52,286 bases of DNA from Clostridia bacterium (GTDB lineage Bacteria > Bacillota > Clostridia > Christensenellales > Aristaeellaceae), in the NCBI GenBank assembly GCA_017431005.1, contig JAFRLY010000030.1, positions 1 to 52,286 on the forward strand, in the 5' to 3' direction. Shown here one piece after another: positions 1,707-15,700 of the stretch (position 1 is the first letter of the stretch; each line of letters opens with the position of its first letter). The position numbers were made by a program, and so were the translations under genes. Below the pieces are notes generated by a model, which worked only from the letters and a program-made list of their open reading frames with translations, did not search any database and was not told where the DNA came from.

Positions 1707-2394
1707 ACTGAAAAGCAGGCTGCGGGAAATTGCCCTTTCCTGCGGCGGCTCCGGGCCTGAAAGGACCCCGGCAGGCCCGGCCGTCTATCTGACCTTTGAC
1801 GACGGCCCGGGGCCGTACACTGCCGGCCTCCTGGACGTCCTGAAGGACTGCGGGGTTCGTGCGACCTTCTTTGTAACGGCTCAGAAACCGGACTGCCTGG
1901 ACCTGATCTCCCGGGCTTCCGCGGAGGGCCACAGCATCGGCGCTCATACGTTTTCCCACGAGTACAGGGAAATCTATGCCGGCGACGGAGCCTTTCTCCG
2001 GGATTTCCTGGCATGCGAGGAAATGATCCGCGCCCGGACAGGCCGATATACCAGGCTCTTCCGCTTTCCCGGCGGCAGCTCCAATACCGTCAGCCGCATC
2101 ACACCCGGCATTGTGACCCGTATGTCGGAAACGCTGACTGCCATGGGCTTCCGGTATTTTGACTGGAACGTGGACAGCGGGGACACCTCGGGAATCAGAG
2201 ACGGGGGAACGGTTCTGCGGAATATCACGGAAGGCTGCCGGGGACGGCAGGCCAGCATTGTTCTGCAGCATGACATCAAAAGCTTCAGCGTCGGGATCGT
2301 GCGGGACGTCATCGCCTGGGGCCGGGAAAACGGTTACTGTTTCCTGCCTTTGGGACCGGACAGCCCTGAGGCAAGGCTCCCCATCGCCAACTGA
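1693..2394 (+). CDS. polysaccharide deacetylase (NodB/CE4 family)
   Basis: A 233-residue carbohydrate esterase family 4 protein, predicted to remove N-acetyl groups from a polysaccharide such as peptidoglycan. All five family motifs are visible: TFDDGP (34-39), HTFSH with metal ligands H85 and H89, RFPGGSS, DWNVDSGD and a final LQHD. It begins inside the end of the preceding transglycosylase/lysozyme gene, so the two are probably translationally coupled. There is no signal peptide or membrane segment, although CE4 enzymes acting on the wall normally have one. It ends 16 bases before the convergent C39-like gene. The enzyme family is clear; the substrate is inferred from the neighbour. Confidence 0.9.
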   Translation: MTENELKSRLREIALSCGGSGPERTPAGPAVYLTFDDGPGPYTAGLLDVLKDCGVRATFFVTAQKPDCLDLISRASAEGHSIGAHTFSHEYREIYAGDGAFLRDFLACEEMIRARTGRYTRLFRFPGGSSNTVSRITPGIVTRMSETLTAMGFRYFDWNVDSGDTSGIRDGGTVLRNITEGCRGRQASIVLQHDIKSFSVGIVRDVIAWGRENGYCFLPLGPDSPEARLPIAN

Positions 2395-2410
2395 CGGGCC
2401 CGCAGAGCTT

Positions 2411-2941
2411 TTACGGCTGCGTCCTGCCGTCCGGGAGCCTGAACCAGCGGATCTCGAGAACCTTCGGGTAGCTGCTGAGCTTCCTTTCTCCGGCTGCCGG
2501 GTCAAAAATGTCCGCGTCCTCCGGCGTCAGCCGCAGCAGGCAGAGGAAATGCCTCTCGGCGTTGTGGCCCGGAACGGTCAGAAGGCACGGGAAACCGTTC
2601 CCGGCGATCCGTTCCAGCGCGTCCCGGGAATACGGAACCGGATCCTGATATTCCAGCGGATACAGGCCGCGGATTCTGCCGATATAAAGATCCGCCTCCG
2701 GAGAGAACGCGCCGATGGCCTGAAGGCTCCGGTTCAGCTCCCACGGGCTGAACGTTTCCGATGCTTCCAGCCCGCAGCGGCGCAGGAGAAGGGCCAGGGA
2801 GCATACCAGGCAGCCGGAATCGCGGAACAGGCTGAAACGGGCATACGGAAACAGGGCCTTCGGCCATGCTTCGGCCCGGTTCCAGCGGGGATTGTCCTGC
2901 CGCCAGAACACTTCCTCCTCTGCGCTGAGAATTTTGTTCAT
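2411..2941 (-). CDS. C39-like cysteine peptidase family protein
   Basis: This 176-residue protein matches the general layout of C39-like (Peptidase_C39_2) proteins: an early Q-D-NPRW segment, SGCLVCSLALLL with the candidate nucleophile Cys, then NAERHFLCLL with a candidate His and DIFDPAAG with a candidate Asp about 15 residues later. The start ATG at 2941 follows GGGAGGAAACAGT. No signal peptide is visible, so it may act in the cytoplasm. It is divergent from the ABC exporter gene starting at 3038 and convergent with the deacetylase. Such folds include bacteriocin-leader peptidases, but family members also have other roles, so the substrate is not predicted. Confidence 0.6.
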   Translation of the reverse strand: MNKILSAEEEVFWRQDNPRWNRAEAWPKALFPYARFSLFRDSGCLVCSLALLLRRCGLEASETFSPWELNRSLQAIGAFSPEADLYIGRIRGLYPLEYQDPVPYSRDALERIAGNGFPCLLTVPGHNAERHFLCLLRLTPEDADIFDPAAGERKLSSYPKVLEIRWFRLPDGRTQP

Positions 2942-3037
2942 ACTGTTTCCTCCCTGCGGACGTACCGGGCTTCATGCTGTCCTGCCCGGCGCGGTATCCG
3001 GAACGTCTGAAGAAAACCACCCCGGAGGTGTATTTGC

Positions 3038-5170
3038 TTGAATCTTTCAGTGGAAAACATCCACCTCGCCGTAAAGCAGGCCGGGAATTTCATGAAGGCC
3101 AACGGCGCCGACAGCGAACAGCAGCTGGATTACCGCCTGATCCTGGAGGATCTGCTGCTGGAATACCGGAAGCTGTACGGGGAAGAAACCGCCTTCCGGC
3201 TGGTTCTCAGACGCAAATGGAAAACGGTTGTGCTGTCCCTGCGCGTCGCCTGTGAAAGCCGCAACCTGCTTCTGGATCATGCAAGCGTCATCACCAGACA
3301 CCTGCTGGACAATATTTCACTTGGGCTTTCCTGGAGCTACTCCAGGCATGAGAATGTCATCACCTGTTCCTATACGACGCCCATGATGGACTACAGGAGC
3401 ATCCGGTACATCTGGCAGTATATGCGGGATGAGCGGAGCACCTTCCTGGGGGCGGTTGCCCTGCGCTTTGTCAACATGGGCCTGTCCGTCCTGGAGCCTC
3501 TTCTTTCCGCCTGGATTGTCGTGGCGTATTCCGGCGCGGAGATCAGAAAAATCATGCTGCTGGCGCTGCTCATCCTGGGACAGGGCGCCCTGAGAAGCTC
3601 GATCAACTATGCCGCGAGCCGGCTGCTCCGGAGATCGTATGCCGTTATGCTCAAGCGGATGCAGACGGATCTGGCGGAACGGATTCTGCGGATCCGGACG
3701 GAACGGATGGACAAAACAGGCAGCGGCGTCTTCTCGAAGCGTCTGCTGAGCGACACTGCCGGTGTGGTGGACGGTATTGACGACCTCCTGGGAACGTTCA
3801 CGGAGGCTTTCCACCTGGTGAGCCTGCTGATCTGCTATCTCGTGGTTTCGCCTACGATGTTTTTCTTTGAGCTGGCGCTTTTCACGGCTTATTTTCTTAT
3901 CCAGCGGGCGCACAGCAAAAGCCTGCAGCAGAACGGCCGTGAAACCAGCGTCGCAGATGACAGGCACAGCGGCTTTGTCAGCGAAATGGTCCGCGCCCAC
4001 CGCGATATCAAGCTTCTTCACTGTGAGGACAGCTTTATGGACAGGTTCAGCGAAAGCGTCCGGGAAAGCGTGGACCTGGCCTCCAAAATGCGGCGCAGGT
4101 CCATGAACTTCATTCTGCTGCGCTCCCAGTTTATCAGCTGGACAAGCTTCGCGTATATGGGGCTTCTGGCCCTTATGATGGTGAAATACGGCATGACGCC
4201 TTCCACGGCCCTGGTTCTGTTCAACTATAACGGCAAGGTCTATACCTGCGCCTGGGACCTCGCGAACCTGATGAAAACCGCGTACAGCCTGGGCCTGTCC
4301 GTCGAGCGGATTTACCAGCTGATGAACAGCCCCGACTATGAGTGGGAAAAGTTCGGCAGCGGGCATATCGGCAGGGTCCGCGGCGACCTGGAAATGCGCA
4401 ATGTGCACTTCACCTACCGCCAGCAGGACGGCAAGGAAAACAAGGTGCTCAACGGCGTCAGCCTGAAAATTCACGCCGGTGAATCGGTCGCCCTGGTGGG
4501 ACGCAGCGGATGCGGGAAAACGACGATTCTGTCGCTCTTTTCCCGCCTGTATGATCCTGACAGCGGGGAGATCCTGATCGACGGCGTTCCCGTGGAGACG
4601 CTGGATCAGGAAACCGTCCGCGGAAGCATCACCATGGTCAGCCAGATGCCTTACCTGTTCAATATGAGTATCCGCGACAACCTGGCCCTTGTGAAGAAGG
4701 ATATGACGGACGCGGAAATGCTGGAGGCCTGCAGGATCGCTTGTATTCACGACGATATCATGGCGCTTCCGGACGGCTATGACACTGTGGTCGGTGAAGG
4801 CGGCGTGCAGCTGTCCGGAGGTCAGCGCCAGCGCCTGGCTCTGGCCCGAAGCCTGCTGCGGGATTCACCCGTCATCATGCTGGATGAAGCGACCTCCGCG
4901 CTGGACAACGTGACCCAGTCCGAAGTCACCCGGGCCATTGAAAATATGCGCGGCAGCCGTACGATCATCATGGTTGCCCACCGGCTGTCCACGGTCATCG
5001 GCTGTGAGCGCCTGTTCTTCATTTCGGAGGGCAGGGTTCTGGCGTCCGGCACGCACCGGGAGCTGATGGCAGGCTGCGAGGAGTACCGCAGTCTCTACGG
5101 CGAGGAGGACCGCGCCGCCCGGGCGGCCGGCGGCAGTGCAGACGGGGACGGTCCCCGGCCGCACGGATGA
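3038..5170 (+). CDS. ABC exporter (membrane + ATPase) with N-terminal GHKL-like domain
   Basis: A 710-residue type I ABC exporter half-transporter. Residues from about 125 to 400 form the transmembrane region, followed by the ATPase with GRSGCGKTT (Walker A), LSGGQRQR (signature), VIMLDEATS (Walker B) and a switch His in VAHRLST. The first about 110 residues are not part of an ordinary exporter. They run helix, then RLILEDLLLEY, then alternating strands (FRLVLRRKW, VVLSLRV) and end WSYSRHENVITC, which resembles a degenerate RsbW-type GHKL domain. It is not a C39 peptidase domain. Translation appears to start at TTG 3038 after GGAGG. Its TGA abuts the STAS gene stop so that TGATCA serves both genes. 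The exporter call is secure; the N-terminal domain is inference. Confidence 0.88.
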   Translation: MNLSVENIHLAVKQAGNFMKANGADSEQQLDYRLILEDLLLEYRKLYGEETAFRLVLRRKWKTVVLSLRVACESRNLLLDHASVITRHLLDNISLGLSWSYSRHENVITCSYTTPMMDYRSIRYIWQYMRDERSTFLGAVALRFVNMGLSVLEPLLSAWIVVAYSGAEIRKIMLLALLILGQGALRSSINYAASRLLRRSYAVMLKRMQTDLAERILRIRTERMDKTGSGVFSKRLLSDTAGVVDGIDDLLGTFTEAFHLVSLLICYLVVSPTMFFFELALFTAYFLIQRAHSKSLQQNGRETSVADDRHSGFVSEMVRAHRDIKLLHCEDSFMDRFSESVRESVDLASKMRRRSMNFILLRSQFISWTSFAYMGLLALMMVKYGMTPSTALVLFNYNGKVYTCAWDLANLMKTAYSLGLSVERIYQLMNSPDYEWEKFGSGHIGRVRGDLEMRNVHFTYRQQDGKENKVLNGVSLKIHAGESVALVGRSGCGKTTILSLFSRLYDPDSGEILIDGVPVETLDQETVRGSITMVSQMPYLFNMSIRDNLALVKKDMTDAEMLEACRIACIHDDIMALPDGYDTVVGEGGVQLSGGQRQRLALARSLLRDSPVIMLDEATSALDNVTQSEVTRAIENMRGSRTIIMVAHRLSTVIGCERLFFISEGRVLASGTHRELMAGCEEYRSLYGEEDRAARAAGGSADGDGPRPHG

Positions 5171-5476
5171 TCATTCCACTGAAAGGATATCCAGAAAGCC
5201 TGTAATATCAAAAATATGACGGATCGTGCTGTTCGCGTTCACAACCTTAACCTGCGCCGCGCCCTTATCCTCCATCACCTGTTCGGCGGCCAGAAGCACC
5301 CGCAGGCCGGCGGAGGAGATGTATGAGAGCTTTGCGAAGTCGATAGTCAGCGAATCAGCTTCCGCCAGCAGCGGCTGCAGCTCTGCGTCAAAATCCGGAG
5401 AGCTCAGCGTATCCAGCTCTCCCTCCAGCGCGAAGAACAGCGCGCCGTTTTCCAGTTTCCTTTCTGTCTTCAGCAT
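5171..5476 (-). CDS. STAS-domain anti-sigma factor antagonist (SpoIIAA/RsbV-like)
   Basis: The 101-residue product is a single STAS domain. It shows the family core DFAKLSYISSAGLRVLL, in which the Ser at 54 or 55 is where RsbW-type kinases phosphorylate SpoIIAA/RsbV proteins. An in-frame start lies upstream, but the ATG at 5476 has AAGGAGAAATCACC directly before it and is preferred. The gene sits between two ABC ATPase genes that each carry a GHKL-like appendage, and no sigma factor or SpoIIE phosphatase is in the window. A partner-switching role with those appendages is therefore plausible but unproven. Confidence 0.9.
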   Translation of the reverse strand: MLKTERKLENGALFFALEGELDTLSSPDFDAELQPLLAEADSLTIDFAKLSYISSAGLRVLLAAEQVMEDKGAAQVKVVNANSTIRHIFDITGFLDILSVE

Positions 5477-5565
5477 GGTGATTTCTCCTTGTTTCATATG
5501 ATGGATTCCATTATACATTTTTACGTCCGGGATTTCCAGAATGGGAAAGCAATGAAGCCCAGAAA

Positions 5566-5602
5566 GTCCTGCCGCGCCGCAGCAGCCTGCGCGCGGCAGG
5601 TC
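5566..5602 (-). terminator. possible terminator after the importer ATPase locus
   Basis: GTCCTGCCGCGC (5566-5577) pairs with GCGCGGCAGGTC (5591-5602) across a 13-base loop. On the minus strand the hairpin lies just after the TAA at 5610-5612. The T tract that follows is short, so termination may be partial. Confidence 0.5.
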
Positions 5603-5609
5603 TTTTCCG

Positions 5610-6266
5610 TTACCGGATGACGATATGAACGCAGTTGGAATACCCGTCCTCCCGGACCGGCGTATAAACCATCTCCGATACCGTACCCCGGAGCAGCCTG
5701 TAGGCGAGCGCGTTTCCGCCGGCAGCCGGATCCAGGGAACCGCCGTTGTAGCGCACGTCTATCGCGGCCTCGCCGCTTTTCCTGTCATATTCCACCACCG
5801 CATGGATCTTCGGATCCGGAAGCGCCGGAAGCAGGATCTGCTGGATCAGCTCCTCCAGCACCAGGATGATCGCATAGCCCTTCTCATACGACAGCTCATG
5901 CTTTGCGCAGTAGGCCCGTATCCGGGAGCCCGCGTCGTACAGGTCGATGTCCTGCCCTTCGAAATGCAGCTCCAGCACCTTGAGCTGCCGGATGAACCGC
6001 CGGGTCTTTTCCCGCCGCGGTTCCTCAAAAATCTGCTCCGGCGTGCCTTCCTCATAGATACCGCCTTCGTCCATATAAAACACGCGGTTGCAGACAGCGC
6101 GGGCAAAGTTCATTTCGTGGGTCACAATCATCATGGTTTTGCCGCCGGCGGCCAGCTGCATAATGACCTCCTGAACCTCGCCCACCATGGTCGGGTCGAG
6201 GGCGCTCGTGGGCTCGTCAAGGAGGAGCACCTCCGGGTTCATGGCCAGCGCCCGGGCGATCGCCAC
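5610..6266 (-). CDS. C-terminal fragment: ABC ATPase rear half plus RsbW/GHKL-like domain
   Basis: This is the open stretch downstream of the TAG; a GTG at 6264-6266 could restart translation, but no good ribosome site is evident. After the Walker B and H-loop region, residues from about 90 onward are foreign to importer ATPases. The order is a helical segment, ILVLEELIQQ (position of an N-box), a strand pair ending DVRYNGGSLDP (position of a G1-type box), then NALAYRLLRG and a last strand SNCVHIVIR. This is the layout of anti-sigma kinases such as RsbW, but the usual N-box Asn and G-box Asp are not conserved. It may therefore bind a partner without kinase activity. The fold call is inference from motif order. 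Confidence 0.7.
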   Translation of the reverse strand: MAIARALAMNPEVLLLDEPTSALDPTMVGEVQEVIMQLAAGGKTMMIVTHEMNFARAVCNRVFYMDEGGIYEEGTPEQIFEEPRREKTRRFIRQLKVLELHFEGQDIDLYDAGSRIRAYCAKHELSYEKGYAIILVLEELIQQILLPALPDPKIHAVVEYDRKSGEAAIDVRYNGGSLDPAAGGNALAYRLLRGTVSEMVYTPVREDGYSNCVHIVIR

Positions 6267-6698
6267 CCGCTGCTACTGCCCGCCGGACAGCTCTTCGGGA
6301 TAGCACAGGGCACGCCCTGCCATCCCGACCTCAGTCAGCAGGCGGATGCCTTCGTCATATGCTTCCTGCCGGGTCCTGCCCAGCAGCCTGACCGGCGCGT
6401 ACATGACGTTCTCGATCACGGTCATGTGGCTGAACAGGTTGAAATGCTGGAATACCATGCCCATCTTCTGGCGGACGCGGCTCAGGTCGCATTTCGGATC
6501 GGTGATTTCCTCACCGTCCAGGAGGATCTTTCCGTCCGTCGGAGCCTCCAGCAGATTCAGGCAGCGAAGCAGCGTGCTTTTTCCTGTACCGGAGGGACCG
6601 ATGACGGAGATCACGTCTCCCCGGTGAATCTCCGCGTTCACGTCTTCCAGCGGTGTGACATCGGGATAAGCCTTTTTCAGGTGCTCGATCTTAATCAT
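5610..6698 (-). pseudogene. amino-acid ABC importer ATPase with RsbW-like C-terminus, interrupted by in-frame TAG
   Basis: Read as one 362-codon frame this is a polar-amino-acid importer ATPase with a C-terminal extension. The front part (6698-6273) has GPSGTGKST and GMVFQHFNLFSHMTV and reaches ELSGGQ. The next codon is TAG (6270-6272), then the same frame continues QRVAIARALA, VLLLDEPTSALDP and IVTHEM. The stop replaces exactly one residue of the LSGGQxQR signature, so a single base change (for example from CAG or AAG) explains it. The ATG overlaps the permease stop by eight bases, as expected for an operon. Alternatives are sequencing error, a true null allele, or readthrough. TAG is a genuine stop elsewhere in the window (9125-9127). 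Confidence 0.85.
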
Positions 6699-8958
6699 GG
6701 GTATTCACCCCCTTCAGAACTGCCTCGCGGCTGCGTTTCCGGGGATCGATCCGGTCGATCACCCTTCCGACCGCAAAATTCGTCAGCGCTGCCAGAAGAA
6801 TATAGATGACTGCCACGACCAGCAGCGGGAAAAAGGCCTCGTAGGTCCGGCTGCGGACAATATCTCCCATCTTGGTCAGGTCCTGCACCGCGATATAGCC
6901 CACGATCGATGTGCTCCGGATGAGCGAGCCGATTCCTCCCTTATAGGAGGGAAGGATATGCGGGATCGCCTGGGGAAGAATGATATCAAAGAACGTCCGC
7001 CGGTTCCCAACCCCGAGCGCGTACGCGGCTTCCGTCTGTCCGCGGTCCACCGTTTCCACACCGGTGCAGAGCATCCCGTACACGGAGGCGCCGAAGACGA
7101 TCGTGAAGCCAATGACGGCGACGGCGGTTCCGCTGACAGAGGCCTTGCCGACGAATATCAGATAGTACAGCACCATCAGGAACACCAGCACCGGCATGGC
7201 CTGCACAAGCCACACCGCGGCGCGGGTCACCCGGTTCGCGATCCGTCCGCCGCGCCGGCAAAGCATATACACGCAGAAGCCCAGCGCCGTGCCGAGCAGA
7301 ATGGCTGAAACCGCGATCAGCAGGGTGTTGCCGATGCCCCGCAGGAAGAGCAGCCAGCGGTTTTCCCGGATGAACGTCTTCTCAAAGCTGGCCGCCAGCC
7401 CCCGGAAAAAGCCTTCGTCCCTGCTGCCGGCAGTTGTGCGGACCGCCAGAACGACGCCCGTTTCAAAATGCGGTTCGGAAAACAGCATGGATTTGGCGCG
7501 CTCCTCGGAGATGGCCATTGCCGCCGCGCCAAGGTCGAATTTGCCACTCTGCACCGAGGCCAGCACCGCGGCGAAGCTCATATCCTCCAGCTCCAGCGCA
7601 TAGCCCCGGGCCGCGCAGAAGCGGGTCAGAAGGTCGACCTCATAGCCCACGAGAGCATTGTCCTTCACATAAACCATGGGCATGCTCTCAGAGCTCACCG
7701 CCGCGCGGAGGGTCCCGTTCAGCGCGGGCAGCGATTCGTAACCGGTGGGTTTCTTCTGCTCCTCGTCCGCTCCGAGCCAGATCCTGTTCAGTTCGTCAAG
7801 CGTCCCGTCCTCAGCCGATTCCCGGATGAATTCGCTGATCTCCGCGCACAGGGACTCACCCTCTTCATTTTTGCAGAAGGCGAACGCCATCTTCACCGTG
7901 TCCAGATATTCAGGGATCCAGGATACGCTGTCGTCGCCCGCCGACATGATGCGGATGATCATCTCATCCTCCGCGTATGCTTCCACCTTGCGGGCTTTCA
8001 GGGCCTGAAGCATGTCCGGACTGCCGTTGTAATACGCGAGCTTTGCCGTGGGGATCGCCGCGGACACGAGTTCCGGATGCTCCGATCCTGTGAGAACGCC
8101 GACGGGAAGCCCTGCCAGCTCCTCAGCGCGCGTGTATTCCAGCCCGGAACCCGCGGACGCGGTGTCCCGCACCATGACGCCTGCCGCCTCGGAAAACAGG
8201 ATATCGGAAAACGGCAGCTCCTGTCTGCGCTCCTCCGTAACGTTCAGATCGGCCATGATACAATCGACATCCCCGCTCTGAGCCGCCGCGACGATGGAGC
8301 CGTAATCATATATTCTGAAGGAAAGATCGGCGTTCAGCCATGCCGCAAAGCGGGCGGCAAGTTCGATATCGTATCCTGTGAGCCCGTTCTCCCCGTAGTA
8401 GCTGAAGGGCTCCGCGATTCCGGACGTTCCGACCGTCAGATGCTCCGTCGGGGACGCGGGGACGGGGATATCCGGCATTGCGGTGTTCCCTTCTGCAACC
8501 CACCGGCGGAACATATCGTCCAGCGTGCCGTCCGACCGGAGCTCCGCGATAAAGGCATTGATCCGCTCCTCCAGTCTGTCGATTTTTGAGACGGGCGAGA
8601 TCCCGGCCGCGATATCGATCGGCTCAGCCAGCGTCCCGTCCAGAAGGCGCACGCCGGTGAGCCCGTTTTCAATGGCGATCTCCATCTGCCTGCGGTCGTA
8701 AACGAACGCATCCACCTTTCCGTCCGCGACGGCCCGGTAGCCCATAAACTTGTCGGAGTAATAGGCAAAGGATGCCTCGGGAAAAGCTTTTTCCACGATC
8801 AGGTCCGCCGCGCTGCCCTGATCGACACCGATGGTATACCGGCTGTCGTTCAGCTCTTCAGCGGAAGTAATATTTCCCTTCTCCCCGGCGGCGCAGCCTG
8901 CCAGCAGCCATACAAGTACAGCCGCCAGTACCGCGGCGGCAACAGTTCTTTTTTTCAA
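6691..8958 (-). CDS. fused amino-acid ABC lipoprotein / binding domains / permease
   Basis: This protein of about 755 residues fuses periplasmic-type binding modules to an amino-acid permease. The N-terminus has a lipobox (LLAGCAAG). Residues about 25-150 look like only the second lobe of an SBP_bac_3 domain (GVDQGSAADLI, GKVDAFVYDR, GTLDDMFRRW). Residues about 170-400 are a complete SBP_bac_3 domain. Residues about 415-520 are only a first lobe (GYEVDLLTRF, FDLGAAAMAIS). The permease domain then follows with EAAYALG and PQAIPHILP. TTG 8958 is preferred because GGAGG lies six bases before it; ATG 8964 abuts the GGAGG. It is the first gene of an operon with the interrupted ATPase. The fusion resembles GlnP-type importers but with an unusual lobe order. 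Confidence 0.87.
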   Translation of the reverse strand: MKKRTVAAAVLAAVLVWLLAGCAAGEKGNITSAEELNDSRYTIGVDQGSAADLIVEKAFPEASFAYYSDKFMGYRAVADGKVDAFVYDRRQMEIAIENGLTGVRLLDGTLAEPIDIAAGISPVSKIDRLEERINAFIAELRSDGTLDDMFRRWVAEGNTAMPDIPVPASPTEHLTVGTSGIAEPFSYYGENGLTGYDIELAARFAAWLNADLSFRIYDYGSIVAAAQSGDVDCIMADLNVTEERRQELPFSDILFSEAAGVMVRDTASAGSGLEYTRAEELAGLPVGVLTGSEHPELVSAAIPTAKLAYYNGSPDMLQALKARKVEAYAEDEMIIRIMSAGDDSVSWIPEYLDTVKMAFAFCKNEEGESLCAEISEFIRESAEDGTLDELNRIWLGADEEQKKPTGYESLPALNGTLRAAVSSESMPMVYVKDNALVGYEVDLLTRFCAARGYALELEDMSFAAVLASVQSGKFDLGAAAMAISEERAKSMLFSEPHFETGVVLAVRTTAGSRDEGFFRGLAASFEKTFIRENRWLLFLRGIGNTLLIAVSAILLGTALGFCVYMLCRRGGRIANRVTRAAVWLVQAMPVLVFLMVLYYLIFVGKASVSGTAVAVIGFTIVFGASVYGMLCTGVETVDRGQTEAAYALGVGNRRTFFDIILPQAIPHILPSYKGGIGSLIRSTSIVGYIAVQDLTKMGDIVRSRTYEAFFPLLVVAVIYILLAALTNFAVGRVIDRIDPRKRSREAVLKGVNTHD

Positions 8959-8989
8959 AGCCATCCTCCCTGCTGATTGTGTTTTTATC

Positions 8990-9019
8990 ATAATACAGGC
9001 TGAGGCGGGCGGAATGCAA
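8990..9019 (-). promoter_or_regulatory. sigma-A-type promoter of the fused importer operon
   Basis: On the minus strand TTGCAT (9014-9019) is separated by 18 bases from TATTAT (8990-8995), about 30 bases upstream of the TTG start at 8958. Confidence 0.55.
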
Positions 9020-9056
9020 GGGGGTGCAGGCTCCGCTTCCGCAAGCCGCTGAAAAT

Positions 9057-9091
9057 AAAACGGTATCCTGCGCTGTGCAGGGTACCGTTTA
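9057..9091 (-). terminator. terminator of the two-component operon
   Basis: Read on the minus strand, AAACGGTACCCTGC pairs with GCAGGATACCGTTT around a short loop, followed by TTATTTT. It lies about 35 bases after the response regulator stop and fits a rho-independent terminator. Confidence 0.75.
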
Positions 9092-9124
9092 TTGGATAAA
9101 TATGATTCAGTCTCCTTGTACGGA

Positions 9125-9862
9125 CTATGAATCCTTTCCGGTCTTTTCCCTGCGCCAGGCGGCAGGGGAGAGGCCGGTTTCCTTCTGAAAGCAGGCAACG
9201 AGATATTTGCTTTCGGCGAAGCCTACCCGGTCGGCAATCTCATAGATATGCAGGGAGGTTCGCTCAAGCAGTTCTTTGGTCCGCTCAATCCGTACGGTCA
9301 TCAGATACTGCCGGATTGTCATGTTCATGGCTTTCCGGAAAACCTGGCCCAGATAGGCTGGGGTGACGAACAGTGCGGCCGCAATACCGGCGACGGTCAC
9401 CGGTTCCATGTAGTGAGTATCGATGTAGCGCCTGGCGCTTTCCGCCAGGTCCGGAACAGGTTCCATCTTTTCTTCCGGATGCCTGAGCGCCAGCCTGTTT
9501 GCAATTTCAATCAGATATTCCGCGATTTCATCCTCGTCCAGAGGTTTGTTGAGATAGCCTATGGCGCCGTATTTCATCGCGGTGATGGCATAGTCGAATT
9601 CGCTGTATCCGGTCAGAATGAGCACGTTCGTTTCCCTGTAAGGGGAATCGTGCAGCCATTTCAGAAAATCCAAACCGTCCATAACAGGCATCCGGATATC
9701 CAGCAGAATCAGATCCGGGCAGCACTCCCGGGTCTTGTCCATGGCTTCCTTTCCGTTGGCGGCGGTAGCTACGACCTCAAAGCCGTACTGGGCCCATTCG
9801 AAAGCGACGGGAAGCTGCTCCCGGATCGTGGTTTCATCATCCACAATCAGAACCGGATACAT
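9125..9862 (-). CDS. AraC-type response regulator (YesN family)
   Basis: The 245-residue product has an N-terminal receiver domain with the acidic pocket VDDE (8-10) and the phospho-acceptor D55 in LLDIRMP. The C-terminal part from about residue 150 is an AraC DNA-binding domain with two helix-turn-helix segments (VAGIAAALFVTPAYLGQVF and IYEIADRVGFAESKYLVACF). The chosen ATG at 9862 has AAGGAGGATTTCC before it and overlaps the kinase gene by 26 bases, so the two are coupled. It ends in TAG, one of very few such stops in this window. It probably activates the adjacent sugar importer genes. Confidence 0.92.
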   Translation of the reverse strand: MYPVLIVDDETTIREQLPVAFEWAQYGFEVVATAANGKEAMDKTRECCPDLILLDIRMPVMDGLDFLKWLHDSPYRETNVLILTGYSEFDYAITAMKYGAIGYLNKPLDEDEIAEYLIEIANRLALRHPEEKMEPVPDLAESARRYIDTHYMEPVTVAGIAAALFVTPAYLGQVFRKAMNMTIRQYLMTVRIERTKELLERTSLHIYEIADRVGFAESKYLVACFQKETGLSPAAWRREKTGKDS

Positions 9863-11606
9863 GGAAATCCTCCTTTTTCCAGCGGACCGGAACAATCAGC
9901 GTAAAGACGGTGCCTCCGTTCCGGCGGGATTCAACGTCCAGGCGGGCGGCGTCTCCGTAATACAGCCGGCAGCGGATCAGCACATTGTTCAGCCCCACGC
10001 TGTGCATGCTGTTATCTCCGTTCTGCAGCAGCCGGTGAACCTCCTGAAGCCGCTCGGGAGTCATGCCTTCACCGCGGTCCGCGACGACGACCTTCATGCT
10101 GTCCCCCTCGCGGGTGATGGTCAGCCCGGCATCCTGGGCTCCCTCATCTGTCCAGACGCCGTGGACGCACGCGTTTTCCACCAGCGGCTGGATCAGCATT
10201 TTCGGAATATAGTTGTCAAGCAGCTCTTCATCCGCCTTTACCTCGAAGGCGAAGGCATGATCATACCGGTACTTCTGAATGGCCAGGAATTCCTGCACAA
10301 AGCCCAGCTCCTCCCTGAGGGGGATCAGATCGTCGTGCCAGTCCAGCAGACGGCGGAACATCCGGGACATATAGGTGATCATCCGGGCGGTTTCGGTTTC
10401 CCCGCGGGCACGGGCCTTCAGGCGGATGGCCTCCAGCGCGTTGAACATGAAATGCGGATTAACCTGCGACTGCAGGGCATGGAGTTCCGCGGTGGCCTTC
10501 TCCCGCTGCAGCTGTGCGTGCTGAATTTCGTTGAGATATTCCTTCTGGATATAGTCGTCCAGCTGCCGGCTCATCTGGTCAATATCCCGGGCCAGCTCTC
10601 CGACCTCGTCCTGTCCCATTTTCGTTTCGTCAAGAATGCCGAATTTCCCTTCTGCGATCCCTTTCGTGTGATTGCCGATGGTCTGAAGGCGGCCCGAGAT
10701 GTTCCTGGCCACCAGGGCGGCGAAGAACAGCCCCAGCCCCGTCAGCAGAAGAGAGAGAAGCAGGTAGGGGAGCAGGATACGGGAAACCTCCCGCGTGATG
10801 CTGCTGAGCGGGTAAACGCTGACCAGCCGCAGGGAGGGGCAGGCGCTGAGGGGGAGCTCCATGGTCTGCTCTCCCGAACGGGTCAGAAGCGCGGAATCCG
10901 CGGCCGCAGAGGAGGAGGACAGAAGCACGTGCCCGGCGTCGTCCATGAGCAGGAAGCTGTCGAAGAGATCCGGGTTTTCCAGCTCTGCCCTGAGAACGCT
11001 CAGATTGACGGAAAGACGGAGAATCCGGCTGTAGGTCCGGTTATAGGAGATGGTGTTCATCCGCCGGATGATGCTGATGTCCGGGCCTGGGAAATCGACT
11101 GTGCTTCCGGTGGAAACGCGCAGGAAAAGATCCTGTCCCGAGATGGACCGGAGACTGACCGCATCTTCGGATTCCCCGAAGGAATAATCGACCGGGGACT
11201 GCACACAGATATATTTGCCCGGCAGCAGGGTGGGATTGTCGGTATACACCATCATCCGGCTGACGGCGGAATATACCGGGCTGACGTCCAGCCTGTCCCG
11301 GATATACTCCTGATAAGCCAGCAGGAACTGATAGGGAGAGGAATAGGTCGCGTCCAGGGAGCGGTTCAGGCTGGAGTCCGCGACCACGTCCAGGGAAAGG
11401 GTCACGGCCTGCGTGAACAGCGCGTCCAGCTGATCGCGCCGGTGCTCCATGGACCGCTGCATTTCCTGAATGCGCGCCTCCCGGTTGTCAGTCAGCAGCC
11501 GGTCGACCATCAGGACGGTCAGCAGTGTCATCGGCAGTACAAAGCCGACGATCAGAATGAAGGCCAGCTTTCCCCGCAGGTGAAGCCGGTTCAGCCAACG
11601 TGCCAT
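9837..11606 (-). CDS. sensor histidine kinase (YesM family)
   Basis: A 589-residue membrane sensor kinase. Hydrophobic segments at about 15-35 and 275-300 flank an extracellular region of about 240 residues, followed by a HAMP-like linker (AEGKFGILDE) and coiled region. The kinase core has the His_kinase signature SQVNPHFMFNALE with phospho-acceptor H385. The ATP-binding domain shows PLVENACVHG (N-box) and DRGEGM (G1). It follows the importer permeases with a 43-base gap and overlaps the response regulator, giving binding protein, permeases, kinase and regulator in one transcript. It likely senses an oligosaccharide, perhaps through the co-encoded binding protein; the ligand is unknown. Confidence 0.92.
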   Translation of the reverse strand: MARWLNRLHLRGKLAFILIVGFVLPMTLLTVLMVDRLLTDNREARIQEMQRSMEHRRDQLDALFTQAVTLSLDVVADSSLNRSLDATYSSPYQFLLAYQEYIRDRLDVSPVYSAVSRMMVYTDNPTLLPGKYICVQSPVDYSFGESEDAVSLRSISGQDLFLRVSTGSTVDFPGPDISIIRRMNTISYNRTYSRILRLSVNLSVLRAELENPDLFDSFLLMDDAGHVLLSSSSAAADSALLTRSGEQTMELPLSACPSLRLVSVYPLSSITREVSRILLPYLLLSLLLTGLGLFFAALVARNISGRLQTIGNHTKGIAEGKFGILDETKMGQDEVGELARDIDQMSRQLDDYIQKEYLNEIQHAQLQREKATAELHALQSQVNPHFMFNALEAIRLKARARGETETARMITYMSRMFRRLLDWHDDLIPLREELGFVQEFLAIQKYRYDHAFAFEVKADEELLDNYIPKMLIQPLVENACVHGVWTDEGAQDAGLTITREGDSMKVVVADRGEGMTPERLQEVHRLLQNGDNSMHSVGLNNVLIRCRLYYGDAARLDVESRRNGGTVFTLIVPVRWKKEDFHVSGSDCG

Positions 11607-11649
11607 TTTATTTCCTCATCCTTCGCTTCTTTCGGAAAAGCCAGATTGA

Positions 11650-12561
11650 TTAACCCTTGACGGCTCCGAGCATAACGCCCTTGACAAAGTACTTCTGCAG
11701 GAACGGATAGACCACCAGGATCGGCACGGAGGCGACGATGGTGACGGCCGAGCGGATGGAAACGGGCGTGATGATATTGGCCTGCTCCGAGTTGTTTCCG
11801 AAAACGCTTGAGGTGTCGCGGCCGGTCTGCATGGAGGAAGAAAGAAGCTTCATCATCTCATACTGCAGCGTGGTCATATGATCCGCGTTCGGCGCGTAGA
11901 GGAAGGTGTCGAACCAGGAGTTCCAGGCGCCCACGGCGCACCAGAGGGCTACCGTGGCCAGCACCGGCTTGCAGCAGGGGAGCACCACGTTCCAGTAGCA
12001 GCGGAAGTGTCCGGCGCCGTCCACGATGGCCGCCTCGGTCAGACTTTCAGGAAGCGACTGCATAAAGGCCTTGATGACGATCACGTTGAATACGGAGATC
12101 ATGCCGGGGAGGATATAGACCATGAAATTGTTCAGAAGCCCCAGGGATTTGATCAGGAAATAGTTCGGAATGAGACCGGCGGAAACATACATGGTGACCA
12201 GAAAGTAAGCGGTGATGAACTTCCGGCCTACCAGCTCCGGCCGGGAAAGCACATAGCCGACCAGCGAGGCGAAAAAGACGCTCAGCACCGTTGCCAGAAG
12301 TGTACGGGCCACGGAGTTGAAGGCGGCCGTCAGCATCAGGCGGCTTTTGAAAACCATTTCATAGCTGTAGGCCGAGAAGACCCGGGGCCACAGTCCGATT
12401 CCGCCGCGCAGGGTGTCCTGGGCATCGTTGAAGGAGATGGCGACGGTATTCAGGAAGGGATAGAGCATCACAACGATCACAAACAGCATGATCAGCACGT
12501 TGATCATGTCGAAGACCGGGAGCTTAAAGCGCTTTTTATGCAGGGTATTCGTTTGAGACAT
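11650..12561 (-). CDS. carbohydrate ABC permease (LplC/YtcP type)
   Basis: A 303-residue inner-membrane permease with about six hydrophobic segments and the conserved cytoplasmic loop SLPESLTEAAIVDGAGHFRCYWNVVLP (EAA motif), which docks the ATPase. The ending FVKGVMLGAVKG is typical of the LplC/YtcP branch. It starts 14 bases after the stop of the partner permease, with GTAAGGAGG forming its ribosome site. No ATPase is in the operon, which is usual for this class because a shared MsmX-like ATPase serves several importers. The transported sugar is not determined by sequence. Confidence 0.92.
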   Translation of the reverse strand: MSQTNTLHKKRFKLPVFDMINVLIMLFVIVVMLYPFLNTVAISFNDAQDTLRGGIGLWPRVFSAYSYEMVFKSRLMLTAAFNSVARTLLATVLSVFFASLVGYVLSRPELVGRKFITAYFLVTMYVSAGLIPNYFLIKSLGLLNNFMVYILPGMISVFNVIVIKAFMQSLPESLTEAAIVDGAGHFRCYWNVVLPCCKPVLATVALWCAVGAWNSWFDTFLYAPNADHMTTLQYEMMKLLSSSMQTGRDTSSVFGNNSEQANIITPVSIRSAVTIVASVPILVVYPFLQKYFVKGVMLGAVKG

Positions 12562-12574
12562 CTTCTTTTCCTCC

Positions 12575-13504
12575 TTACATCAGACTGGTTTCGCCGAACC
12601 GGTTGGCAATGGCGTTGGCTCCGAAGACCAGGGTGACGGAAATGACAGTCTTGAACATACCCGCAGCCGTGGCCAGGGAGTAGTTCCCGATGCTCATGCC
12701 GTATTTCAGGACGAAGATGTCGATGGTCTGTGATACGTCAACCAGCAGGCCGTTGCTGCCCAGCAGGTACTGCACCTCAAACCCGGCGTTGAGAATCGAA
12801 CCCAGGTTCATGATCAGCAGAACCACGATGGTGGAACGAATTCCGGGAAGGGTGACGTGCCACATCCTGCGGAAGCGTCCGGCACCGTCGAGCTCCGCCG
12901 CTTCGTAGAGGGCCGGATCGATCCCGCTGATGGCGGCGATGTAGATGATGGAGTTCCAGCCCATTTCCTTCCAGACGTTGGCGAAAACCACCACCCACCA
13001 GAAGTAGCCGGGTTCCCCGAGGAAGAGGATGGGTTTATCCGTTATTCCGAGCGCCCGGATGACATTGTTGACGATTCCGTCGGAGGCCAGCATGCTCTGC
13101 ACCAGGGCGCAGACGATTACCCAGCTCAGGAAGTGAGGCAGGTAGGACACGGTCTGTGTGATCCGCTTGAAGCCGGTGTGGCGGATTTCGTTCAGCAGCA
13201 GCGCGAACACGATGGCGAACAGGAACCCGAAGACCAGGTTCAGCAGAGACATGGCCACAGTGTTGCGGAATGCGCGCCAGAATTCAAAATCGTCGAACAG
13301 AAAGCGGAACTGATCCAGACCCACGAATTTCGAACCCCAGTATCCCTTGGCCGGCTTGAAATTTTCAAAGGCCATGATCCAGCCGGTCAGCGGATAATAG
13401 GAAAAAATGAAGGTGAAGATCATGCACGGGAGGATCATGACATAAAGCGATCTGCTTTTGTTTATGCGCTTCGCGAGGCTTGCCTTCCGCATATGGTTCT
13501 CCAT
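12575..13504 (-). CDS. carbohydrate ABC permease (LplB/YteP type)
   Basis: A 309-residue partner permease with the N-terminal segment SRSLYVMILPCMIFTFIFSYYPL, further membrane helices and the EAA loop DPALYEAAELDGAGRFRRMWHVTLP. The C-terminal NRFGETSLM resembles the LplB/YteP branch. The ATG at 13504 has GCAGGTG upstream. It is separated from the upstream binding-protein gene by a strong hairpin, so its level is probably lower than that of the binding protein. Together with the following LplC-type gene it forms the membrane pore of an oligosaccharide importer. Confidence 0.92.
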   Translation of the reverse strand: MENHMRKASLAKRINKSRSLYVMILPCMIFTFIFSYYPLTGWIMAFENFKPAKGYWGSKFVGLDQFRFLFDDFEFWRAFRNTVAMSLLNLVFGFLFAIVFALLLNEIRHTGFKRITQTVSYLPHFLSWVIVCALVQSMLASDGIVNNVIRALGITDKPILFLGEPGYFWWVVVFANVWKEMGWNSIIYIAAISGIDPALYEAAELDGAGRFRRMWHVTLPGIRSTIVVLLIMNLGSILNAGFEVQYLLGSNGLLVDVSQTIDIFVLKYGMSIGNYSLATAAGMFKTVISVTLVFGANAIANRFGETSLM

Positions 13505-13535
13505 AAGGTCACCTGCTTTCCAGGAAAATAATCAA

Positions 13536-13569
13536 AAAGGACAGAAGGAGCGGGCTCCTTCTGTCCTTT
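13536..13569 (-). terminator. intercistronic hairpin / attenuator between binding protein and permeases
   Basis: AAAGGACAGAAGGAG (13536-13550) and CTCCTTCTGTCCTTT (13555-13569) form a perfect 15-bp stem with a four-base loop. On the minus strand it is followed by T residues. It lies ten bases after the binding-protein stop and 32 bases before the permease ATG, and could give partial termination or 3' mRNA protection. Confidence 0.8.
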
Positions 13570-13579
13570 ATCAGTGAAC

Positions 13580-15274
13580 TCAGAATCCCATCTTGAGGGC
13601 AATCTGACGGGTTACCTCATCCTTGAGGGCGTCAAGATTGATGGCATGGAACTCGGTCAGGAATTCTTCCCAGATCTTGTCGAAGGCGGCGTCGTCTTCA
13701 GCAAGCACCAGGCGGGAGTCATACTTGGTGGTCACGTCGGTGATCTTCGCATTGGCAACAGCCGCGGGGCTGCCGTCTTCCAGAGACATGGCCCAGACCG
13801 GGAAGTAGTCGGGACGGACGATGGGCTCAGAATGCATTTCGGCCGGATATTCGATGCCGTAGCCCTTCAGGAAGCTCTGGTCATATTCGGACTGGGAAGC
13901 CAGATACTCACCGGCGGAATCGTCGTTACGGACGGGCGCTCCGTCAGACTTGTACAGGCCCTGCCAGGCGGGGGAATAGTTCCAGACGGTGTAACCGGTC
14001 TCGTCACGGCGGCGGGCGCTGTCACGCCACAGGGCACGGCGCGCGTCGGTGAACGCCTTGGAACCGGATTCGGTTTTGACCCAGTCTTCGCCTTCGACAC
14101 CCCAGAGGATGTAGTCCTGCACATCACGCTGCAGCAGCCAGTCATAGAACTTCAGCAGACGTTCGGGGTTCTTGCACTTGGTGGTGATGCCGATGCCGTT
14201 CAGGCCGGTGGGCAGAGCACCGTCGGGGTTCTTGCCTTCGATGTAGCCGTCACGGACGCCGGGGTTGGTGATCGGGACGGACACGAAGGTACGGTTGAAC
14301 TTGCCGTCAGCCTTCAGCAGATCCACGGCGGAACCGAAGTTCCAGCCCTGATCATAGAAGCCGAGCACAGCGCCGGTGGTCAGCTTGGAGATGTACTGGT
14401 CATAGCTCATCGTCAGGGTCTCGGCGCTGATGACGCCCTTGCGGAATTCTTCATTCAGCTTCTTGTAGAGGTTGTAGGCGGTTTCGGTGTCCTGATAGAA
14501 AGCGGGCTCATAGGTCTGATAGTCCACGAACATCGCGCCGTCGTTGGCGTCGCCCATCAGGTTCTGCGCCGGGTTCAGCAGCGCCCAGTTGCGCCATCCG
14601 TCGCAGAGAATTTCGAAGCCGGAGGTCTTGACGCCGTCGATTTCCGGATACTTGGCCAGATAGGCCTCGATGATGTCAAAATACTCGTCCAGCGTGCGGG
14701 GAATGACGTAGCCGGCATCCTCCAGCACGGCCTTCTGAATGTAGAAGCCCAGGCCGCATTCAAAGATCGGGCTCTGATCCACGACGGTGTTGCCGCGGAA
14801 CACGGAATACATTTCCAGCTCATAGGCATGGCCATCTTCCGCCTTCAGGGAGTCGATGCATCCGCCGTACATGGCGTTCAGGTTCTGATACTTCGGGATT
14901 TCATCCTCCAGCGGGATGAAAGCGCCGGCATCAATCAGTCTCATGGAGGCGTCTCCGGCGAACACGGCGTCCGGATATTCCTCACCGGCCATCATCACGC
15001 CCAGACGAGTGTCCAGATCGCCGACCAGGAATTCGAACTTGATGGTTACGCCGGTCAGCTCAGCGATCTTCTTCAGCACGGGGTTGTCAGCCGCGGGTTC
15101 CGTGCCGGGGTCGCGGACAAAAATGGTGAAGGTGATGGGATCGCCGGCATCATCCAGCGGGGCAAGACCTCCGTAAATATTAGTGGGATCTGAGGAGGCT
15201 TCGCCGCCTGCCACGCTGACGAGGCTGAACAGCATTACCAGGGACAGCAGGATTGCAAGAAAACGCTTTGACAT
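13580..15274 (-). CDS. extracellular carbohydrate-binding protein (LplA type)
   Basis: The 564-residue product is a large ABC solute-binding protein (family 1) of the LplA type, heading an operon of two permeases and a two-component pair. The N-terminus is a clear signal peptide, LAILLSLVMLFSLVSVAGG, but it lacks a lipobox Cys, which is unusual for a Gram-positive binding protein. Interior segments such as EYPDAVFAGDASMRLIDAGAF and GINGIG-like GLNGIGITTKCKNPERLLKF fit the fold. The ATG at 15274 has AAAGGAGCCCTGATC upstream and is preferred to earlier in-frame starts. It probably binds an oligosaccharide; which one is unknown. Confidence 0.9.
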   Translation of the reverse strand: MSKRFLAILLSLVMLFSLVSVAGGEASSDPTNIYGGLAPLDDAGDPITFTIFVRDPGTEPAADNPVLKKIAELTGVTIKFEFLVGDLDTRLGVMMAGEEYPDAVFAGDASMRLIDAGAFIPLEDEIPKYQNLNAMYGGCIDSLKAEDGHAYELEMYSVFRGNTVVDQSPIFECGLGFYIQKAVLEDAGYVIPRTLDEYFDIIEAYLAKYPEIDGVKTSGFEILCDGWRNWALLNPAQNLMGDANDGAMFVDYQTYEPAFYQDTETAYNLYKKLNEEFRKGVISAETLTMSYDQYISKLTTGAVLGFYDQGWNFGSAVDLLKADGKFNRTFVSVPITNPGVRDGYIEGKNPDGALPTGLNGIGITTKCKNPERLLKFYDWLLQRDVQDYILWGVEGEDWVKTESGSKAFTDARRALWRDSARRRDETGYTVWNYSPAWQGLYKSDGAPVRNDDSAGEYLASQSEYDQSFLKGYGIEYPAEMHSEPIVRPDYFPVWAMSLEDGSPAAVANAKITDVTTKYDSRLVLAEDDAAFDKIWEEFLTEFHAINLDALKDEVTRQIALKMGF

Positions 15275-15700
15275 GATCAGGGCTCCTTTCATCATTTTTT
15301 ATTTCCAAATCTTTCCGGCCGGAATATATCTCCGGCCCGGTCTCTGCATTTATTGTAAGAGAGGAGTTTCTGAGATTCCATCTTATGATTATGGAAAAAA
15401 TACCAAAAATTATGGATTTTATCCAATACAGACAATGGAAAACCAAAAAATCCATTTATTGCAGGATGCCATTGACCAGCTGGAAGCCGGCAGCGAACGA
15501 TATATTTATGATATATACGGGATGCAGGAAGAATGATACACCCGGAGGCAGAATCCGCCATGACAAAGGAAACAAAAAAATTTTATATAAATTTGGAGGA
15601 AAAACACTGCCACCCGGGAAATAAAAACGTATACACATATGTCCGGCGGGAAACAGGCCGGAACATAAAATACAATCAAATGTATAAGGAGGAACTGAAA
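15275..15700. other. AT-rich intergenic region between divergent transcription units
   Basis: About 425 bases hold the upstream region of the minus-strand importer operon and of the plus-strand small membrane gene. A weak minus-strand -10 (TACAAT near 15356) is possible. A 33-codon frame at 15435-15536 lacks a ribosome site and is not called. An inverted repeat TCCGGC/GCCGGA sits near 15642-15662. No RNA gene is recognised. Confidence 0.4.

Follow-up and report, generated by a model that had tools for sequence, protein, structure and literature searches.

In the 52,286-nucleotide stretch of a Clostridia contig analysed here (the window), an ABC exporter and the ATPase of a GlnPQ-type importer each carry an appended domain that is predicted to be of the RsbW type, and a gene for a stand-alone STAS protein adjoins that of the ATPase. 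We consider it somewhat probable (roughly 0.57) that STAS proteins dock on such transporter-borne GHKL pseudokinase domains, that partner switching would in this way set transport directly, and that the STAS protein of the window would work with the importer.

Gene organization of the window

The exporter (3038..5170, plus strand, TTG start, 710 aa) combines PF00664 and PF00005 with a predicted N-terminal RsbW-type GHKL domain at 3038..3415 (plus strand), and its residues 1-126 have no Pfam match at E ≤ 1. On the minus strand, a GlnP-like subunit at 6691..9198, in which Pfam recognizes three stretches of SBP_bac_3 fused to BPD_transp_1, is followed by the GlnQ-type importer ATPase with a C-terminal extension (5610..6698, minus strand, interrupted by an in-frame TAG) and then by the STAS gene. 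The fusion of SBP_bac_3 to a BPD_transp_1 permease, with the ATPase gene adjoining, places the importer in the GlnPQ type on the basis of Pfam. GlnPQ importers of Lactococcus have substrate-binding domains fused to the permease and a GlnQ-like ATPase in the same way. The window ATPase differs from them in its C-terminal extension, a predicted RsbW-type pseudo-GHKL domain at 5613..5993 on the minus strand.

The STAS protein (5171..5476, minus strand, with an open frame to 5518; PF01740, 7e-14) likely starts from the ATG at 5476, which is preceded by AAGGAG. It consists of a single STAS domain whose motif YISSAGL retains the phospho-acceptor serine, as the first-pass annotation of this DNA had stated. 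The gene adjoins the ATPase gene, with 133 bp between the importer stop and the STAS ATG, and of the two transporters only the importer is encoded on its strand. The exporter gene is convergent to the STAS gene and therefore falls outside an importer/STAS operon; the STAS protein of the window most likely belongs with the importer. A promoter-like site just upstream of the STAS gene (5510..5538, minus strand) is defined by 10 of 12 consensus matches only, and four such sites were found in the region versus 1.6 in shuffled sequences.

Upstream of the exporter, at 297-1706, lies a gene that joins a transglycosylase to a lysozyme domain of phage type (PF00912 and PF18013), and a transglycosylase also neighbours the exporter relatives in loci L059 and L060. 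Near the exporter relative in L060, a small ORF (2947-3345) contains a stretch ending in Gly-Gly, which presumably resembles a bacteriocin leader and hints at peptide export. Positions 9125-15295 of the window hold a regulatory pair of the types Response_reg plus HTH_18 and His_kinase plus HATPase_c (Pfam), beside what appears from the open reading frames to be a lipoprotein-type ABC uptake operon.

Fold and ATP-site residues of the appended domains

Both the N-terminal appendage of the exporter and the C-terminal appendage of the importer ATPase model as RsbW-type folds, and profile comparison likewise shows them as predicted RsbW/SpoIIAB-type GHKL domains, in agreement with the original assignment. 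The profile of the importer family reached 94.7% against intact RsbW proteins and 96.8% against the profile that joins exporter domains with their relatives on SDF symporters (the exporter/SDF family). The latter profile reached 97.2% against intact RsbW proteins, and a STAS negative control gave 0.2% in each comparison. The five exporter domains alone, which make a thin profile, gave 10% against RsbW, and it was the addition of the SDF-borne relatives that raised this to the higher value. Neither window domain matches Pfam PF13581 (HATPase_c_2), which matched 2 of 23 importer-family members weakly (best E 0.013). Comparison of the importer-domain profile with PDB sequences returned chance matches only (best E 0.32), an NCBIfam search gave no consistent match, and a plasmid search gave no match.

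Residues of the ATP site were read at profile-aligned positions, relative to RsbW neighbours, in 69 importer-family and 14 exporter/SDF-family sequences. The catalytic-base glutamate, which faces the substrate serine, is present in all 69 importer-family domains, while the N-box asparagine is found in 3 (glutamine in 62) and the G1 aspartate in none (tyrosine in 67). The corresponding counts for the exporter/SDF family are 10/14, 2/14 and 0/14, and the exporter of the window itself has Asp in place of the catalytic-base Glu. RsbW-type proteins from nearby loci, in contrast, keep E, N and D together in 8 of 8 cases. The ATP-lid stretch of the importer domains is also shorter (median 35 versus 45-54 residues, by rough landmarks in the 59 of 69 sequences measured). 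The degenerate N- and G-boxes that were first noticed in the window are thus borne out, the N-box Asn and G1 Asp being lost in nearly all members of both window families. Because the residues that hold Mg-ATP are lost, the window domains probably no longer phosphorylate and would be pseudokinase-like. Retention of the glutamate while the nucleotide residues were dropped is the pattern expected of a domain on which STAS proteins dock.

Interruption of the importer ATPase gene

The ATPase frame opens at 6698 and meets the in-frame TAG at 6273..6275 (minus strand), in the region of the ABC signature. The product assigned to 5610 by the first-pass annotation, where it was treated as a whole ATPase, corresponds to the second half of the protein, the complete gene covering 5610-6698. 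Uninterrupted frames of 360-410 aa are present at 19 of 24 other places in the same genus. The 5 shorter frames include two that begin at a contig edge (L064 and L066) and three that look broken or fragmentary (L063, L043 and L065). Among the best 80 of 220 relatives in the genome contig collection, 72 have an ATPase frame of at least 362 aa. Intact copies exist, and the copy in the window has either a mutation or an assembly error, which may also hold for a few others. Reassignment of the stop codon was considered as a cause of the TAG and is disfavoured, as most relatives are open at this place and the ordinary gene at 9125-9895 ends in TAG. Since the frame is interrupted, the importer arm may be dead in this copy of the genome. 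The domain 3' of the TAG keeps its conserved Glu pair and aligns across the whole importer family, and the genome is an incomplete assembly of 63 contigs.

Spread across genomes and transporter families

The GHKL domain is mobile between transporters and occurs on four types, namely ABC exporters, GlnPQ-type importers, SDF dicarboxylate symporters and MATE pumps. Of 61 genomes, 18 have the importer appendage, which also recurs in 220 stretches from the genome contig collection (the best 80 of these were analysed). The exporter appendage was found in 4 of the 61 genomes, and the exporter-domain profile matched in 14 of 371 genomes of the class (the window's own genome is included in each of these genome counts). 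Exporter-type domains sit N-terminally on the ABC exporters L170 and L171, judged from sequence, and on SDF symporters, PF00375 being present in both of those scanned (L167 and L197). MatE and HATPase_c_2 lie in one chain in five of five MATE-type fusions scanned with Pfam, four of which are in the window's own genome (L083 and L183-L185). The fifth is that of L201, in which HATPase_c_2 stays below the Pfam cut-off (22.0 versus 27.4 bits). Three MATE-borne domains were read for their ATP-site residues: the N-box (EEMAGN) and a G1-position Asp are both retained in those of L083 and L183 but not in that of L201. Architectures that combine MATE with HATPase_c_2 may already be represented in domain databases.

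Linkage to partner-switching genes

Linkage of STAS genes to the importer is real but a minority pattern. In the sample of the best 80 of 220 importer relatives, which overlaps the same-genus set, 8 loci have a same-strand STAS gene no more than 800 bp downstream, compared with 0.45 expected from the density elsewhere in the loci (P 3e-8). These 8 include three near-identical loci whose STAS frames are without their first third (L131, L133 and L135), one STAS domain fused to an APH-like domain (L142) and one locus with a broken importer frame (L102). If 6, 5 or 4 independent cases are counted, P becomes 7.6e-6, 1e-4 or 1.2e-3, respectively, the strictest count of 4 comprising independent, intact and stand-alone STAS genes. 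Ordinary GlnQ-type ATPase loci have a downstream STAS gene in 0 of 28 cases and no switch gene in their 1.5-kb flanks (30 loci minus that of the window and another with the GHKL domain; 3 with less than 800 bp downstream). Switch genes were counted from profile scans, as greedy gene maps missed some of them (e.g. RsbW in L048). At least one switch-domain match was found in 19 of the 80 loci, and 40 of 41 STAS, RsbW or SpoIIE domain hits are co-directional with the importer. In L048, a same-genus locus, a gene for an RsbW-type kinase with intact motifs (6511-7029) lies directly 3' of the gene for the importer ATPase with its GHKL domain.

Occurrence of STAS genes independently of these ATPases had been named at the outset as an argument against a functional connection, and it was partly observed. 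No STAS gene was found in the fetched stretches of 24 same-genus importer loci (up to about 6 kb on each side, some limited by contig ends), nor in the locus of the closest relative, L087 (77% identity, among the best 80 of 220). In a class-wide draw from 371 genomes, a STAS gene directly downstream was found in none of the 17 importer loci other than that of the window, and 6 of the 17 have a same-strand switch gene within the fetched stretch. The exporter relatives L059-L062, L192 and L193 have no adjacent STAS gene, and two of these six have one about 5 kb away, in one case on the opposite strand.

Whole switch modules accompany GHKL-bearing transporters at several loci. In L197, genes for a STAS protein, a fusion of SpoIIE and RsbW that includes a 5TM sensor, an SDF symporter with an N-terminal GHKL domain and an SBP-permease-ATPase-GHKL chain lie on one strand, with frames that overlap or are at most 50 bp apart. 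L201 holds STAS, MATE-GHKL, SpoIIE with dCache and HAMP, and RsbW on one strand. In the window's own genome, L083 likewise holds STAS, RsbW, MATE-GHKL and SpoIIE-GNAT, the last of these (1947-4298) being a fusion between a SpoIIE phosphatase and a GNAT acetyltransferase. STAS, SpoIIE and RsbW are found near the importer in L123, L102 and L135, the importer frame of L102 and the STAS frame of L135 being defective. An RsbW-type kinase and a SpoIIE phosphatase share one locus in L197, L201, L083, L102, L123 and L135.

The contig of the window (C31) has no match to PF13581, SpoIIE or Sigma70_r2 (the latter two at E ≤ 0.001). The earlier statement that no sigma factor or SpoIIE phosphatase is present thus holds for this contig but not for the genome, which contains elsewhere 5 SpoIIE domains, 8 Sigma70_r2 matches and a pair of RsbW-type genes whose motifs are intact. 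With no match to an RsbW-type kinase or a SpoIIE phosphatase on the contig, these partners would have to act on the window from other parts of the genome. STAS genes on contigs C58, C53 and C48 are paired with genes for proteins of about 180-200 aa that look GHKL-like by eye (L080 7473-8039, L081 6827-7408 and L085 6626-7162); the L080 protein, the only one of the three scanned, has no Pfam match. Fusions of STAS with an APH-like phosphotransferase domain (PF01636) are encoded in L142 (870-2102) and L158 (10522-12129), the latter fusion also including HATPase_c_2.

Proposed mechanism and alternatives

RsbW-type kinases phosphorylate the serine of STAS proteins, SpoIIE-type phosphatases reverse this modification, and phosphorylated STAS proteins release. 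In the mechanism proposed here, a free RsbW-type kinase would phosphorylate the STAS protein on its serine, the phosphate would be removed by a SpoIIE-type phosphatase, and the transporter-borne domains would most likely be docking sites for STAS proteins. Only the unphosphorylated STAS protein would dock on such a domain, and the docked protein would change the state of the transporter, with the result that transport activity is set by partner switching. By analogy to MlaB and MlaF, we lean slightly towards docking that switches import on rather than off. The idea that partner switching controls transport directly gains from the GHKL-bearing transporters with whole modules in relatives, and loses from the partial independence of STAS genes and ATPases.

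Alternatively, the arrangement in the window could have decayed, the ATPase gene being a pseudogene and the STAS protein an orphan that serves a partner elsewhere, such as the GHKL-like proteins encoded on C58, C53 and C48. The in-frame TAG fits such decay, as do the promoter-like site that the STAS gene has for itself (a consensus match), the other STAS pairs in the genome and the broken appearance of L063, L043 and L065 in the same genus. We nevertheless find this doubtful, as the domain 3' of the TAG keeps its Glu pair and its alignment across the family, and a base error is possible in an assembly of this kind. It seems more doubtful still that sensing is done by the transporter, whose GHKL domain would capture or release the STAS protein according to the state of transport and so free the kinase for a sigma factor or another output, in which case transport would control transcription. 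STAS docking on the GHKL domain is common to this explanation and the preferred one, and the genome does hold Sigma70_r2, SpoIIE and intact-motif RsbW-type genes. However, no sigma factor is found on C31, and, according to Pfam, SpoIIE in L123, L201 and L197 is itself equipped with sensor-type domains (dCache, HAMP and 5TM-LYT), so that a transporter is not needed as the input.

A slightly less likely explanation again is that the domains are relics of the RsbW fold that serve in structural dimerisation or scaffolding with no contact to STAS proteins, the adjacency of STAS genes being local noise in genomes where STAS, SpoIIE and GHKL genes are abundant. As SpoIIAB and RsbW both form dimers, the domain could have such a role on ABC ATPases; moreover, the STAS gene is not adjacent in most of the GHKL-bearing transporters examined and the strict downstream count comes to 4 intact independent cases. 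Noise of this kind is at odds with the 8/80 downstream STAS genes where 0.45 were expected and controls gave 0/28, with the 40/41 co-directional hits, with the whole modules of L197, L201 and L083, and with a glutamate that is invariant in the importer family although the nucleotide residues are lost. Kinase activity of the appended domains towards STAS proteins is very improbable. The MATE-borne domains of L083 and L183 (2 of the 3 read) would fit such activity with their N-box and G1-position Asp, but in both window families these residues are nearly always lost (Asn 3/69 and Asp 0/69 for the importer, Asn 2/14 and Asp 0/14 for exporter/SDF), and the importer lid segment is shorter; on these residues, kinase activity of the window domains is disfavoured.

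Comparison with known systems

With STAS proteins docking on pseudokinase domains, the system of the window would be a new variant of partner switching that has its GHKL arm on transporters. It resembles the RsbV/RsbW/RsbU and SpoIIAA/SpoIIAB/SpoIIE switches of Bacillus in having a STAS protein with a phospho-acceptor serine, an RsbW-type GHKL fold and, in the wider system, a SpoIIE phosphatase. It differs from them in that the GHKL domain rides on transporters, that ATP-site residues are lost and that no sigma factor is encoded on contig C31.

In the SiaABCD system, SiaB is the kinase and SiaA the phosphatase. Precedents for direct control exist in the action of SiaC on SiaD and of MlaB on MlaF, as described in the accessible parts of the respective sources (PMC8457831, PMC7367683). 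In Pseudomonas aeruginosa, SiaC directly binds and activates SiaD; the output there is a diguanylate cyclase bound via its stalk, whereas the outputs here would be several transporter families (PMC8457831, accessible part). In MlaFEDB, a STAS protein is likewise paired with an ABC ATPase, and a phosphomimetic substitution at a conserved Thr of MlaB weakens binding to MlaF (PMC7367683, accessible part). According to the same part of that source, MlaB binds the ATPase itself including its C-terminal extension, whereas the presumed receptor in the window is a whole RsbW-type domain (PMC7367683). The window also differs from the Mla transporter in that it has BPD_transp_1 and SBP_bac_3 in a GlnPQ-like arrangement and no Mla-type permease or substrate-binding subunits.

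To our knowledge, archaea are without bacterial sigma factors, and a cluster of the rumen archaeon Methanobrevibacter ruminantium therefore fits a non-transcriptional output. In this cluster (mru0066-mru0071), an NRPS gene is surrounded by genes for two serine phosphatases, one anti-sigma factor antagonist and one efflux protein of the MatE type; the authors proposed that the cluster serves to sense the environment, to regulate expression of the NRPS and to export the NRP (PMC2812497, accessible part). Unlike for the transporters of the window, the accessible part of that paper mentions no GHKL domain for the MatE pump (PMC2812497). Among the literature matches listed, from a search mostly without subscription papers or bioRxiv, none described transporter-borne GHKL domains that act together with STAS proteins, and ABC, MlaB and MATE are all absent from the accessible part of the text of PMC8256260.

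Implications

Partner switching is known mainly from the control of sigma factors. We give about even odds that the RsbW-type GHKL domain, as a pseudokinase receptor in several families, has been transferred to transporters of at least four unrelated families, and that one switch would set several transporters with no sigma factor involved (its absence having been checked on contig C31). The locus L197, where the switch and two transporters lie in one run, makes this directly testable by reconstitution. If true, the proposal would give a rationale for STAS and SpoIIE genes that have no sigma factor nearby. If the GHKL arm is built into transporters, partner switching would rapidly connect a membrane sensor phosphatase with nutrient uptake and efflux in rumen and gut Clostridia.
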